Assembly (NCBI GenBank): GCA_031255975.1
Contig: JAIRRM010000037.1
Span: 1 to 14,712 of the forward strand
DNA: 14,712 nt
Origin: Propionibacteriaceae bacterium
Lineage (GTDB): Bacteria > Actinomycetota > Actinomycetes > Propionibacteriales > Propionibacteriaceae
Direction: 5' to 3'
The position numbers and the translations under genes are program-made. Below, piece after piece: positions 2,958 to 6,963 of this stretch. The notes under the pieces were generated by a model. The model worked only from the letters and a program-made list of their open reading frames with translations. It did not search any database and had not been told where the DNA came from. Each line of letters opens with the position of its first letter. Within the stretch, counting starts at the first letter, position 1.

Positions 2958-3312
2958 GACTGCATCCTAACAACCCTGAGCGCTAATGCCTCCGGTGCCG
3001 GTTCGGATTCGCTCCTGGCTCAGGGGCATGGTTACGGTTCGGATTCACGCCCGACCCGTGATCGTGTCCGATTCGCGGTCGCGCGCCTCAGCTTGGATTT
3101 CAGCGGCCACGGCGACACCCGCTCAACTCGAAACCCCACTCTGGATACGCGCCACGCGAGGCATGTGGTATCGCGAAACGCACCGCAAGCGTAGCCATCG
3201 GTTTGCATCACCCCCCACCGAACCGTGGCCCCAAACCGGCACCGGATGCGGTGGTCGTCCGCGTCCGGGCCACGATTTCGTCGCAGACCACCCAGCAAGA
3301 CACAATGGTGGT
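2958..3312. other. Divergent intergenic region between the CPBP and VOC genes
   Basis: This 355-nt stretch separates two divergently transcribed genes and must hold both promoters. I see no convincing protein: the open frames crossing it are rich in Arg and Pro and look like GC-rich noise. It holds a 12-nt direct repeat, CGGTTCGGATTC, at 2999-3010 and 3035-3046, with a partial third copy (GTCCGATTCG) at 3066-3075. The right end is the probable start signal of the VOC gene. No tRNA, terminator or riboswitch was recognised. Confidence 0.6.
2999..3046. repeat. 12-nt direct repeat CGGTTCGGATTC, two copies
   Basis: Identical copies at 2999-3010 and 3035-3046 start 36 nt apart, with a degenerate copy (TCCGATTCG) near 3067. 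They lie 42-90 nt upstream of the CPBP start, where an operator could be, but the unit has no palindromic symmetry. Function unknown. Confidence 0.45.
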
Positions 3313-3313
3313 A
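3301..3313 (+). promoter_or_regulatory. Possible -10 box of a leaderless start for the VOC gene
   Basis: CACAAT at 3301-3306 lies six bases before the ATG at 3313, the distance expected between a -10 hexamer and the transcription start. No Shine-Dalgarno precedes this ATG. Both facts fit a leaderless mRNA beginning at the A of the start codon, which is common in actinobacteria. The -35 region is not convincing, so this is tentative. Confidence 0.3.
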
Positions 3314-3954
3314 TGCGTCTCGACTCGCTCAGCTTCGCCGCCGGCCCCGATGGTCTGAAAGCCGATGTGGCGAAGCTGTCCGATCTGCTGGGGGCGAAGT
3401 TCCGTGATGGCGGGGTACACCCGCGGTTCGGCACCCGTAACTACATCTTGCCGCTGGTCGGCGCGCGCTATCTGGAAGTGGTCGAGGTGCTCGATCATCC
3501 GGTGGCTGAAAAAGCATTTTTCGGCAAGGCGGTACGCGCCCGGCAGGAGGCTGGCGGCGGCTGGCTCACCTGGGTGATCTCGGTGGACGATCTCGGCGAT
3601 TACGAGAGAAGGCTCGGACGTGACGCGGCCCTGGGGCAGCGTCGTTTCCCCGACGGACGGCTGCTGGAATGGCACCAGATCGGCCTCATCGAGGGTATCG
3701 TCGCCGAGCGCGCGTTGCCGTACTTCATTCATTGGGACAGCCCGGAGGATGTGTTGCCCGGCGCGCTAGCCAGCGTCACCAGCGTCTCCAAACTGGAACT
3801 CTCCGGGTCGAAAGCCCACGTCGCGGAGTGGATCGGAGCCGAGATCGGCGACACTTTTGACGGGGTGGAGTTCAGTTTCCGCTCCCCCAACGGTAGGCCC
3901 GGCTTGGATGCCGTGACCTTCGTCACCGCCGACCGTCGCGTGGTGCGAATCTAG
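3313..3954 (+). CDS. VOC/glyoxalase-like domain protein
   Basis: A 213-aa soluble protein resembling the glyoxalase-like (PF13468 type) members of the vicinal oxygen chelate superfamily. Residues 1-125 look like one module: an N-terminal beta-alpha start (MRLDSLSFAA), HPRFGTRNYILPL (36-48), YLEVVEVLDHP (53-63), WLTWVISVDDL (84-94) and LEWHQIG (118-124). The second half, from about residue 136 (LPYFIHWD) through FSFRSPNGRPGLDAVTFV (188-204), looks like a further half-module. Histidines and glutamates that could bind metal are present (H36, E55, H121, H140), but I cannot assign ligands or a substrate. I rejected the longer in-frame start at 2986 because its added 109 residues are Arg/Pro-rich noise. 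The DUF501 gene starts 10 nt after the stop, so it leads the VOC-DUF501-ppx operon. Confidence 0.78.
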   Translation: MRLDSLSFAAGPDGLKADVAKLSDLLGAKFRDGGVHPRFGTRNYILPLVGARYLEVVEVLDHPVAEKAFFGKAVRARQEAGGGWLTWVISVDDLGDYERRLGRDAALGQRRFPDGRLLEWHQIGLIEGIVAERALPYFIHWDSPEDVLPGALASVTSVSKLELSGSKAHVAEWIGAEIGDTFDGVEFSFRSPNGRPGLDAVTFVTADRRVVRI

Positions 3955-3964
3955 GCGTCAACCG

Positions 3965-4516
3965 ATGGAATGCCCCTTCGAGACGGCCTCCGACGGGGGC
4001 TCTCCCAAGGATCGCGTCTCGCCGCAGCCCGCCACCGACCATGACATCGAGGTGATGTCGGCACAGTTGGGGCGCCCGGCGCGCGGCGCTATCGCCGTGG
4101 GGTGGCGCTGCCCTTGTGGCAACCCGGCGGTCACTCTGACCGCACCCCGTCTACCAGATGGCACCCCGTTTCCCACCATGTACTACCTCTCTTGCCCCAG
4201 GGCCGTCTCCGCCGTGTCTCGGCTAGAGGCAAATGGCCTGATGGATACGTATAACGCCCGACTTGCCACCGAACCGGAGCTGGCGGAGGCGTACGCGGCG
4301 GCGCATCAGTCATACCTCGCTGATCGTGCTGCGCTGCCCGGCGGCACCGCCGTACCTGAGACCGATGGAGTGAGCGCCGGTGGGATGCCGACGCGGGTGA
4401 AATGCCTGCACGCGCTGCTGGCTCACGCATTGGCCGCCGGGCCGGGTGTGAATCCCATCGGCGACGAGGTGCGGGAATTGATCGGCGAGTTCTGGGGTGA
4501 ACCGTGTCTGCCATGA
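3965..4516 (+). CDS. DUF501 family protein
   Basis: A 183-aa cytoplasmic protein of the actinobacterial DUF501 family, function unknown. Diagnostic stretches are RGAIAVGWRCPCGNPAV (residues 40-56), PRLPDGTPFPTMYYLSCPR (61-79), LEANGLM (87-93), and the C-terminal GMPTRVKCLHALLAHALA (140-157) with VNPIGDEV (162-169). The conserved C49, C51, C77, C147, H149 and H154 could form a metal site; that is inference. The first 30 residues look poorly conserved, and the ATG at 3965 lacks a clear ribosome site, so the true start could lie further in. In actinobacteria such as Mycobacterium the gene typically sits between the FtsB/DivIC gene and ppx, downstream of eno. Here a VOC gene takes the upstream place. 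It overlaps ppx. Confidence 0.93.
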   Translation: MECPFETASDGGSPKDRVSPQPATDHDIEVMSAQLGRPARGAIAVGWRCPCGNPAVTLTAPRLPDGTPFPTMYYLSCPRAVSAVSRLEANGLMDTYNARLATEPELAEAYAAAHQSYLADRAALPGGTAVPETDGVSAGGMPTRVKCLHALLAHALAAGPGVNPIGDEVRELIGEFWGEPCLP

Positions 4517-5436
4517 ACCGCACGGTTGCCGCCGTGGACTGCGGCACCAACACCATCCGGTTGCTCATCGCAACCCGCGACGGCGACGGCACCTTCACCG
4601 AACTGACCCGCGAGCAGCGCTTCGTTGGGCTGGGTCAAGGGGTGGATGCCACCGGCGCTTTCGATGACGCCGCGGTGGTACGTACCTTCGCTGCCTGTGA
4701 GGAATATGCCGCCATCATCGCCGAAAACCGCGTTGACCAGGTGCGCTTTGTCGCCACTTCCGCCACCCGCGACGCCGCCAACCGCGCCGAGTTTTTGAGT
4801 GGGGTGGCGCTGCGGCTGGGGGTGACCCCCGAGGTGATCTCCGGCGACGAGGAGGCCATTCTCAGTTTTCGGGGTGCCTTGTCGGGACTGGGAAACGTCA
4901 GGGGGCCCGTCCTGGTGATCGACTCCGGCGGCGGCTCCACCGAGTTGGTACGCGGCCTGACGGACGGCACCATCACCGAAGCGGTCAGCCTTGACATCGG
5001 CTCGCGGCGCATTCGTGAACGCTATCTGCTCAGCGACCCGCCCACCGAAGCGCAGGTTCACGCCGCCCGCAAAGAGGTACGCAAACTGCTGGGGGCGACG
5101 GGTATCGATTTTGACGAGGTACGCACCGCCGTCGCCGTCGCGGGCACCATCACCACCATGTCCGCGCTCGTCCAGGGACTGCCGGTATACGAGCGTAGCC
5201 GGGTGCACCTGTCACGGCTACGACGCGACAACATCGCCGATCTGACCGGACGGCTGCTCAGCAGCACCGCCGCCGAAATCGAGGCGATGGGGCCGGTGCA
5301 ACCAGAGCGCGCCAAGGTGCTAGCCGCCGGGGCGCTGCTAGTCAACGAGATAGCCCAACGCATCGGCCCTGCCGAGTTGACGGTGAGCGAATCTGACATC
5401 TTGGACGGCATCGCGTTAGGGTTATTATCGTCCTGA
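4504..5436 (+). CDS. ppx: Exopolyphosphatase/pppGpp phosphohydrolase (Ppx/GppA family)
   Basis: A 310-aa member of the ASKHA-fold Ppx/GppA family, which releases phosphate from polyphosphate ends or converts pppGpp to ppGpp. It matches the short actinobacterial form without the C-terminal HD-like domain. Visible are the first phosphate loop VDCGTNTIRLL (residues 11-21), ATSATRDAANR (84-94), GDEEA (114-118) with the catalytic-type glutamates, and the second phosphate loop IDSGGGSTEL (139-148). Two starts are possible. GTG at 4504 has GGGGTGA (4494-4500) close upstream, so I chose it; ATG at 4513 would give a classic ATGA overlap with the DUF501 stop and 307 aa. The final codons are unusual: three TTA leucines lie among the last seven sense codons, overlapping what looks like the promoter of the downstream tRNA. 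Confidence 0.95.
   Translation: MSAMNRTVAAVDCGTNTIRLLIATRDGDGTFTELTREQRFVGLGQGVDATGAFDDAAVVRTFAACEEYAAIIAENRVDQVRFVATSATRDAANRAEFLSGVALRLGVTPEVISGDEEAILSFRGALSGLGNVRGPVLVIDSGGGSTELVRGLTDGTITEAVSLDIGSRRIRERYLLSDPPTEAQVHAARKEVRKLLGATGIDFDEVRTAVAVAGTITTMSALVQGLPVYERSRVHLSRLRRDNIADLTGRLLSSTAAEIEAMGPVQPERAKVLAAGALLVNEIAQRIGPAELTVSESDILDGIALGLLSS
5401..5428 (+). promoter_or_regulatory. Probable promoter of the tRNA, inside the 3' end of ppx
   Basis: TTGGAC at 5401-5406 and TATTAT at 5423-5428 are 16 nt apart. The -10 matches the TATAAT consensus at five of six positions; the -35 match is weaker. Transcription would start near 5435, about 20 nt before the tRNA 5' end at 5455, leaving a short leader for RNase P. 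The -10 box is an AT-rich island in GC-rich DNA and creates the TTA codons at the end of ppx. Confidence 0.55.
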
Positions 5437-5454: not shown

Positions 5455-5528
5455 GCCCTCATAGCCCAATAGGTAGAGGCAGGCGGCTTAAACCCGCCTT
5501 GTTGTCGGTTCGAGTCCGACTGGGGGCA
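5455..5528 (+). tRNA. tRNA with anticodon UAA (nominal tRNA-Leu) and a short, class-I variable loop
   Basis: A 74-nt cloverleaf folds by eye. The acceptor GCCCTCA (5455-5461) pairs with TGGGGGC (5521-5527), with one G-T pair and discriminator A at 5528. The D arm is 5464-5480, with GCC/GGC paired and the GG pair at 5472-5473. The anticodon stem GGCGG/CCGCC (5482-5486 and 5494-5498) closes a seven-base loop CTTAAAC, giving anticodon TAA at 5489-5491. The variable loop is TTGTT (5499-5503). The T arm is GTCGG-TTCGAGT-CCGAC (5504-5520). No 3' CCA is encoded. UAA reads the leucine codon UUA, but standard bacterial tRNA-Leu has a long variable arm, so charging with leucine is unproven. It lies 18 nt after the ppx stop. 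Confidence 0.88.
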
Positions 5529-5542
5529 CGGAGTTGGCTCCG
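5529..5542 (+). other. Small hairpin directly after the tRNA
   Basis: CGGAG and CTCCG (5529-5533 and 5538-5542) form a 5-bp stem with loop TTGG, starting at the base after the discriminator. There is no T-run behind it, so it is not a classical intrinsic terminator. It may help 3'-end processing or end transcription weakly. Between it and the convergent ATPase stop at 5647 I see only another 5-bp hairpin (TCGGG/CCCGA, 5611-5629). Confidence 0.35.
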
Positions 5543-5646: not shown

Positions 5647-6963
5647 TCAAACCTCAGAGCCGGGGCATAGCGAAGCGGCAGCATACAGCGGCAGTGACAC
5701 CACGCCGCCTTTACTGCCGAAATTGCGGGTGCTAAACCGAATGACGTACGGGGGATCAAATCGGCTCCGGTATGCCTCCAGGCTCGCAGACTTGACTCGT
5801 ATCCCCGCCTTGACCTCCAGCGGGATAACGCCCTCGTCGGTGTCCATGACGAAGTCGATTTCGGCATTGTTGTCGTCACGCCAGTAGAACAGCGGGACAC
5901 CGCGCGCGGCTAGCTGACAAGCGACGTAGTTTTCAGCGATTGCCCCTCTAAATGGCATGTCGTGGTCAAATAGCACGGCGGCGGCGCGTACCCCGGCTAG
6001 CTGGCAAAGCAGACCCGTGTCGTTCAGAAACAGCTTGAAAAAGCCGTCCCGTTCATACGCCCTGAGCGGGCTGGTCGGAGTACTGACCATGGTTACACAG
6101 CGAACGATCTCAGACGCGACGAGCCAACTGAGCGCCGAGGCGTAATCACGCGCCCGAGCCCCGGCACGCACTTCCGCGTACTGAAACTTACGACTGGCGT
6201 TGCCCAGTTGGGAGGGCAGCGAGCGATATACCGCCTGGATTCGCGCCGCTTCCATCGGGGTGAGAATGTGCTTCGACATGTCCGCCAGGTAGGACTCCGA
6301 AATGGCGTCCAGGATGCCACGGTCGGTACGTAGCGGATCGATGTCATGCGCAATCAGGTTAGCTACCGCCTCCGGCATTCCGCCTACCCAGAGGTAGCAC
6401 CGATACAGGTCGAGGCAATGTTCGTGCAACGGGGCAGGCAGTTGGGCGCGTTGCGCGCTGTGCTGCAAGATTTCATCCCAAAGCGCGTCTTGGCCGAGGG
6501 CGCTGAGATATTCGGGGAAGTCCATGGGAGCTAGCCGCAGTAATTCGACCTTGCCGACAGGGAACGATTTTGAGAATCTGGCCAGACTGACCCCCAACAG
6601 GGAACCGGCGCAGATGATCTGATACGGGGTGGGATCTTCGGCAAAGAACTTCAGTGATTCGATGAAATCCTCACTGACCTGCACCTCGTCAAAGAACAGC
6701 ACCGTCGATTCAAAATCGACAGCGTGGCCCAGTAGCAGTTGCAGCCGCTTCACCTTCCGCTCGGTGGGGATGGCTTCAGCGAACAGCGCCACGATGTCGG
6801 GGCGTTCGCTCAAGGTGATGGTCTCCGTCGCCGCGAACTCGCGGCGGCAGAACTCCTTTATGACGTATGTCTTGCCAACCTGCCTGGCACCGAGCACGAG
6901 TAGCGGTTTGGCCGCACCGCGACGTTTCCACTCCAGCAACTGACGGTAGATGCGACGTTTCAT
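5647..6963 (-). CDS. AAA ATPase with DUF4143 domain (AAA_14 family)
   Basis: A 438-aa protein of the widespread ATP-binding AAA_14/DUF4143 family, with no established cellular role; members are often lone, mobile genes. The N-terminal ATPase has Walker A GARQVGKT (residues 25-32), Walker B LFFDE (89-93) and the sensor-like AGSLLG (119-124). The middle, about residues 180-340, is helical with winged-helix character. The C-terminal DUF4143 region carries AENYVACQL (343-351), AEIDFVM (367-373) and PLEVKAG (381-387); E344, D370, E383 and K385 resemble a PD-(D/E)XK nuclease core. Whether it cuts nucleic acid is unknown. The ATG at 6963 has TTGGAG just upstream. The gene faces the tRNA convergently and is flanked by its own AT-rich upstream region, so it is probably a single-gene unit and perhaps an insertion into the ppx-tRNA/ftsB neighbourhood. 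Confidence 0.92.
   Translation of the reverse strand: MKRRIYRQLLEWKRRGAAKPLLVLGARQVGKTYVIKEFCRREFAATETITLSERPDIVALFAEAIPTERKVKRLQLLLGHAVDFESTVLFFDEVQVSEDFIESLKFFAEDPTPYQIICAGSLLGVSLARFSKSFPVGKVELLRLAPMDFPEYLSALGQDALWDEILQHSAQRAQLPAPLHEHCLDLYRCYLWVGGMPEAVANLIAHDIDPLRTDRGILDAISESYLADMSKHILTPMEAARIQAVYRSLPSQLGNASRKFQYAEVRAGARARDYASALSWLVASEIVRCVTMVSTPTSPLRAYERDGFFKLFLNDTGLLCQLAGVRAAAVLFDHDMPFRGAIAENYVACQLAARGVPLFYWRDDNNAEIDFVMDTDEGVIPLEVKAGIRVKSASLEAYRSRFDPPYVIRFSTRNFGSKGGVVSLPLYAAASLCPGSEV

Follow-up and report, generated by a model that had tools for sequence, protein, structure and literature searches.

A short tRNA-Leu(UAA) beside ppx in a Propionibacteriaceae bacterium as the probable UUA decoder

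The tRNA gene and its neighbours

The window, as the whole 14,712-nt stretch analysed is called here, contains a single tRNA gene according to both ARAGORN and Rfam RF00005. It lies directly behind ppx, and the features of the locus are:

3965..4516, + strand: gene for a DUF501 protein (PF04417), upstream of ppx
4504..5436, + strand: ppx (Ppx/GppA family, PF02541), ending 18 nt upstream of the tRNA on the same strand
5455..5528, + strand: class I tRNA-Leu(UAA), 74 nt, CCA not encoded (ARAGORN, Rfam RF00005, fold and letters)
5464..5480, + strand: D arm GCCC-AATAGGTAG-AGGC (letters), with A14 at 5468, A15 at 5469, G18G19 at 5472–5473, A20a at 5475 and a C13·A22 mismatch at 5467/5477
5489..5491, + strand: anticodon TAA, within the 7-nt loop 5487–5493 (CTTAAAC)
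5499..5503, + strand: variable loop TTGTT, 5 nt, with T48 at 5503
5528, + strand: discriminator A73 (letters)

ARAGORN called a tRNA-Leu(taa) at 5455–5529, and RF00005 matched 5455–5528 over its full length with 58.4 bits against a cut-off of 29, which places the RNA in that family. The cloverleaf (−32.1 kcal/mol, z −2.45) was equalled by 2 of 200 shuffled sequences. Read from the letters, it has an acceptor stem of 7 bp, a D stem of 3 bp plus C13·A22, and anticodon and T stems of 5 bp each. In RNA form the anticodon loop is CUUAAAC, with the leucine anticodon UAA, and the variable loop is UUGUU, its 5 nt falling short of the 10 nt or more of a class II arm. The original prediction of a clean fold, a seven-base anticodon loop, a UAA anticodon and a five-base variable loop was thus borne out by ARAGORN, RF00005, the fold and the letters.

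The contig carries ppx, proC and divIC-type genes and is therefore bacterial, so the tRNA is not an organellar gene of the animal mitochondrial tRNA-Leu kind. Among 152 loci, ppx was found upstream on the same strand at 33, within 150 nt at 14 of these, and on the opposite strand at three others; many of the loci hold less than 1.5 kb of upstream sequence and the counts are limited accordingly. In G317, which belongs to another family, eno is followed by ppx, one further ORF and the tRNA. The original statement that similar tRNAs occur near ppx in other actinobacteria therefore holds for part of the group. Just downstream of the window tRNA, on the minus strand at 5647–6963, is an AAA_14/DUF4143 ATPase gene with a GC content of 0.59, compared with 0.59–0.67 in the other ten window genes examined.

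Distribution and the search for a class II counterpart

With an 80-base query, the tRNA was matched in 13 of the 17 genomes of the window's family (G000–G016), each time with a 5-nt loop; the four genomes giving no match are metagenome-assembled genomes (MAGs) of 71–81% completeness. A sequencing error in the variable loop, raised in the original prediction, is therefore unlikely. The suggested comparison across actinobacteria extended the short form beyond these 13 genomes to many Actinomycetes.

The broader search pattern fixed only the anticodon loop and the T loop, leaving the D arm free. Among the matches listed, variable loops measured 5–6 nt in two families of the order, one of them that of the window, 8–10 nt in a third and 13–15 nt in a fourth, and short and long UAA tRNAs were both present across the class and the phylum. 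The fetched loci gave 78 distinct UAA tRNAs, comprising 52 short (5–6 nt), six intermediate (8–9 nt) and 20 long (13–17 nt) forms. The intermediate loops (8–10 nt) of family f4 (G019, G022, G025, G028 and others; L055, L060 and L063) are combined with a short-type D arm. Some Kribbella-like genomes (f2: G023, G050, G053, G065 and G109) have two or three long UAA copies among the matches listed. For the 23 genomes of f18 there was no UAA tRNA among the matches listed; the pattern misses some T-arm variants, and the absence probably reflects such a variant.

Carriers of the short form among the 80 named loci listed include Acidipropionibacterium, Microbacterium, Arthrobacter, Nocardia, Tsukamurella, Corynebacterium, Mycolicibacterium, Pseudonocardia, Streptosporangium and others, as well as Acidimicrobiales MAGs and a number of MAGs with labels of other phyla. 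Such labels among the matches listed were Planctomycetota, Rokuibacteriota, Deltaproteobacteria, Acidobacteria, Myxococcales and Alphaproteobacteria. Contigs labelled as non-actinobacterial may have been misbinned; the tRNAs were viewed in eight of them and the ORFs in two (L210 and L153). On L210, labelled as an alphaproteobacterial MAG, three short tRNA-Leu genes (GAG, CAG and UAA) follow one another at 3218–3475, the GAG tRNA having an apparent G73 and an acceptor-stem mismatch.

The short form was not confined to the UAA anticodon. A short tRNA-Leu pattern gave 65 matches in 48 of 80 chosen genomes: 28 TAA, 25 CAA (in 24 genomes), 11 TAG and one GAG-like, with UAA, CAA and UAG short forms together in four of the 80. 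Viral contigs provided at least 120 stretches with short tRNA-Leu; 80 viral loci among those listed carried 70 UAA, 14 CAA, 5 UAG, 2 GAG and 1 CAG short forms.

The original prediction had envisaged the short tRNA as a second UAA reader beside a class II tRNA-Leu(UAA). In the window genome no such second tRNA was found among 39 tRNAs; its class II tRNA-Leu are CAA, GAG and TAG. This MAG is 88.6% complete and tRNA-Leu(CAG) was likewise not found, so a class II UAA tRNA may still be present, a point that counts against the preferred reading given below. For this reason all RF00005 matches of class II length (79 nt or more) were read in five other genomes; complete reading of the short-length tRNAs covered G317 alone (all 40 tRNAs). 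The results were:

G009 (same family, one contig): 10 class II-length matches; Leu CAA, TAG, CAG and GAG long; UAA short only
G862 (Pseudonocardia dioxanivorans CB1190): 7 class II-length matches; Leu CAG and GAG long; UAA, CAA and UAG short (L300, L301 and L302)
G863 (Leucobacter coleopterorum): 9 class II-length matches; Leu CAA, TAG, CAG and GAG long; UAA short only
G317 (one 1.35-Mb contig): 6 class II-length matches; Leu GAG and TAG long; UAA and CAA short; no CAG
G868 (Mycolicibacterium moriokaense): 8 class II-length matches; Leu TAG, CAG and GAG long; UAA and CAA short

Each of the five has a short UAA tRNA, and none of their class II-length matches is a tRNA-Leu(UAA), contrary to the idea of a second UAA reader. 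That the RNA is a pseudogene, a non-decoding tRNA-like RNA or a product of assembly error is hardly credible: its class is unusual for the anticodon, but its cloverleaf is intact, the same form recurs in 13 of the 17 family genomes, and none of the class II-length tRNAs in the five genomes has a UAA anticodon.

Leucine identity and the meaning of the codons

According to a 2023 review (PMC9976931), leucylation in E. coli needs A73, A15–U48, G18G19 and A20a, and the long arm is dispensable. The same review gives the long arm a part in leucine recognition in Haloferax, which counts against the preferred reading. All of the E. coli-type marks (A73, A14, A15–U48, G18G19 and A20a) are present in the window tRNA. 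With the D arm left free in the search, all 46 distinct short UAA tRNAs had A14, A15, T48, G18G19, A20a, C13·A22 and A73, as did all 52 once similarity matches of the window tRNA were added. The long UAA tRNAs carry A14, A15–U48, G18G19 and A73 in 20 of 20 cases and A20a in 19. By the parse used, A20a is absent from the six distinct intermediate UAA tRNAs (8–9-nt loops), which again counts against the preferred reading. Two individual deviations were seen in the named set with a fixed D arm: the short UAA tRNA at 6186–6261 of L227, a contig labelled planctomycete, apparently has G and not A as its discriminator, and L191 has a second, degenerate copy lacking most of the marks.

The specificity of the marks was examined in the non-leucine short tRNAs of three genomes. 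The five combined marks (A14, A15–T48, a 13·22 mismatch, GG.A and A73) occurred in 0 of 29 in G000, 0 of 31 in G317 and 0 of 25 in G868, for which 35 of the 46 tRNAs were read. When a slightly different set without 13·22 was used, one of 28 non-leucine short tRNAs of G000, tRNA-Gln(CTG), qualified as well, and the set is therefore not strictly unique.

Of eight genomes examined for LeuRS, six have short UAA tRNAs and two have long ones; each of the eight has a single LeuRS above the curated cut-off. Two divergent LeuRS types, about 37% identical to one another, occur in Actinomycetes (L336–L343); they are about 37% and 58–70% identical, respectively, to that of the window organism. Each type is found alongside both short and long UAA tRNAs, and no special LeuRS seems, therefore, to be needed for the short tRNA-Leu.

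The meaning of the codons was then compared in test genes. In LeuRS genes, codons of the short tRNAs fell at leucine in 49 of 68 cells in two genomes with class II UAA tRNAs, the control codons CTC/CTG giving 373 of 553. At conserved LeuRS columns the corresponding figures were 16 of 17 (16 Leu, 1 Val) and, for the control, 110 of 111 (110 Leu, 1 Arg). In Mfd of G317, 11 of the 12 TTA codons could be aligned, one lying outside the alignments; counted by eye, 26 of 33 cells in three solved homologues were leucine, with Met, Ile, Val or Phe in the remaining seven. Both TTA codons of the G317 enolase gene (2 of 2) are at leucine, the three chains compared being near-identical.

These results bear on the possibility that another synthetase charges the short tRNA, so that UUA would mean another amino acid or be ambiguous. 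Many features of the short tRNA are those of class I, the long variable arm helps to distinguish class II tRNAs (PMC9976931), and the G000 tRNA-Gln(CTG) shares the mark set without 13·22. Against this, the leucine marks are kept in all 46 distinct short UAA tRNAs of the D-arm-free search, the UUA, UUG and CUA codons of short tRNAs are mostly at leucine positions, and the UUG reader found in G317 and G868 is likewise short. Charging by another synthetase is thus extremely improbable. The original suggestions that a different synthetase charges the tRNA, that it is charged poorly or that it does not decode are not favoured by the intact identity set, the one LeuRS in each of eight genomes and codons lying mostly at leucine.

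A further alternative is that the tRNA decodes but acts chiefly in regulation, delaying TTA-containing genes because it is scarce or poorly charged. Regulation of the bldA type is known in Streptomyces-like genomes, and UUA is rare here, the 11 window genes examined having 12 TTA among their 4348 codons. Streptomyces bldA is thought to delay TTA-containing genes and provides a precedent (PMC4932002). However, three of the last codons of ppx in the window are TTA (305, 307 and 308), and proC, asd and others have one each. G317 (GC 49% at the locus) likewise relies on the short form; there, TTA makes up 12 of the 63 leucine codons of the Mfd fragment and is also used in the enolase and LeuRS genes. 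The Streptomyces-like family f19 shows long, class II UAA forms among the matches listed. A mainly regulatory role is accordingly considered very unlikely.

It is very likely, then, that 5455–5528 is an ordinary LeuRS-charged UUA decoder that happens to lack the long arm; as judged from sequence, it is probably charged with leucine in the usual way. The tRNA would be transcribed beside ppx and CCA added post-transcriptionally. The single bacterial LeuRS would then charge it with leucine, recognising the marks that it has in common with the genome's own class II tRNA-Leu (A73, A14, A15–U48, G18G19 and A20a) and the D stem with its non-Watson–Crick 13·22, and the charged tRNA would read UUA on the ribosome.

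Relation to known tRNAs and possible origin

The 2023 review places the long arm in tRNA-Leu everywhere but in animal mitochondria (PMC9976931), and a short UUA decoder contradicts that general statement. In the part of the open-access literature that was covered, no description of a class I tRNA-Leu as the normal bacterial UUA reader was found. Many actinobacteria apparently rely on leucine tRNAs without the long arm to decode UUA, and some do so for UUG and CUA too. With one LeuRS per cell for both forms, they offer a natural test of LeuRS requirements. They also call for caution with annotation tools that take the long arm as a mark of leucine, and are relevant to the interchange of tRNA classes I and II.

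The bacterial tRNA-Leu(UAA) of class II include E. coli leuZ and Streptomyces bldA. The short form shares with class II tRNA-Leu(UAA) the anticodon, A14, A15–U48, G18G19, A73 and, in all but one of the 20 long ones, A20a; 13·22 is non-Watson–Crick in most class II forms too. It differs in its variable loop (5–6 nt against 13–17) and in having C12–G23 and C13·A22 in place of the usual G12–C23 and G13·A22. Animal mitochondrial tRNA-Leu(UUR) also has no long arm and is reported to depend mainly on A73 and A14 (PMC9976931), but the present tRNA is bacterial with a complete canonical fold, and would be charged by a normal bacterial LeuRS that in five genomes also serves class II tRNA-Leu. Armless E. 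coli tRNA-Leu variants made in the laboratory are reported to stay active with A73 and D/T-loop contacts (PMC9976931); those are engineered, whereas here the gene is natural and conserved. A short variable loop has also been described in a tRNA-Leu(TAG) of a mycobacterial cluster, an unusual copy accompanied by a normal class II isoacceptor (PMC6582537), whereas no class II UAA counterpart was found in the five genomes. One recent mutant, judged by sequence to derive from tRNA-Met, likewise combines a leucine anticodon with no long arm, but the window tRNA, unlike it, bears the leucine marks.

The origin of the short form was examined with 60 concatenated core positions of 305 distinct tRNAs, short Leu being taken as a variable loop of up to 10 nt. 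The nearest neighbour outside the short Leu group was a long Leu for 64 of the 146 short Leu, Lys for 31, a tie for 18 and others for the rest. With the hinge alone the neighbours were ties (64), Trp (30), Cys (27) and long Leu (3). The best FastTree split for short Leu united 87 of the 146 with one intruder at a support of 0.65. Given these mixed neighbours and this split, neither a single origin nor loss of the arm emerges from similarity and FastTree on the 60 positions, and descent of the short form from a class II tRNA-Leu is weakened.

As a tentative reading, plausible though not probable, the class I leucine tRNAs may form a separate mobile lineage, partly virus-borne, that displaces class II in Bacteria box by box: UUA, followed by UUG and CUA (P. 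dioxanivorans has all three short) and locally even CUC/CUG. If this were true, leucine tRNAs throughout Bacteria could keep their identity with or without the long arm, and evading proteins such as SerRS or toxins that recognise the arm could favour losing it.

In two MAG contigs, L153 and L163, the short form adjoins tRNA-Cys. In L153 it follows Gly-Cys, and the resulting Gly-Cys-Leu order is that of glyW-cysT-leuZ in E. coli.
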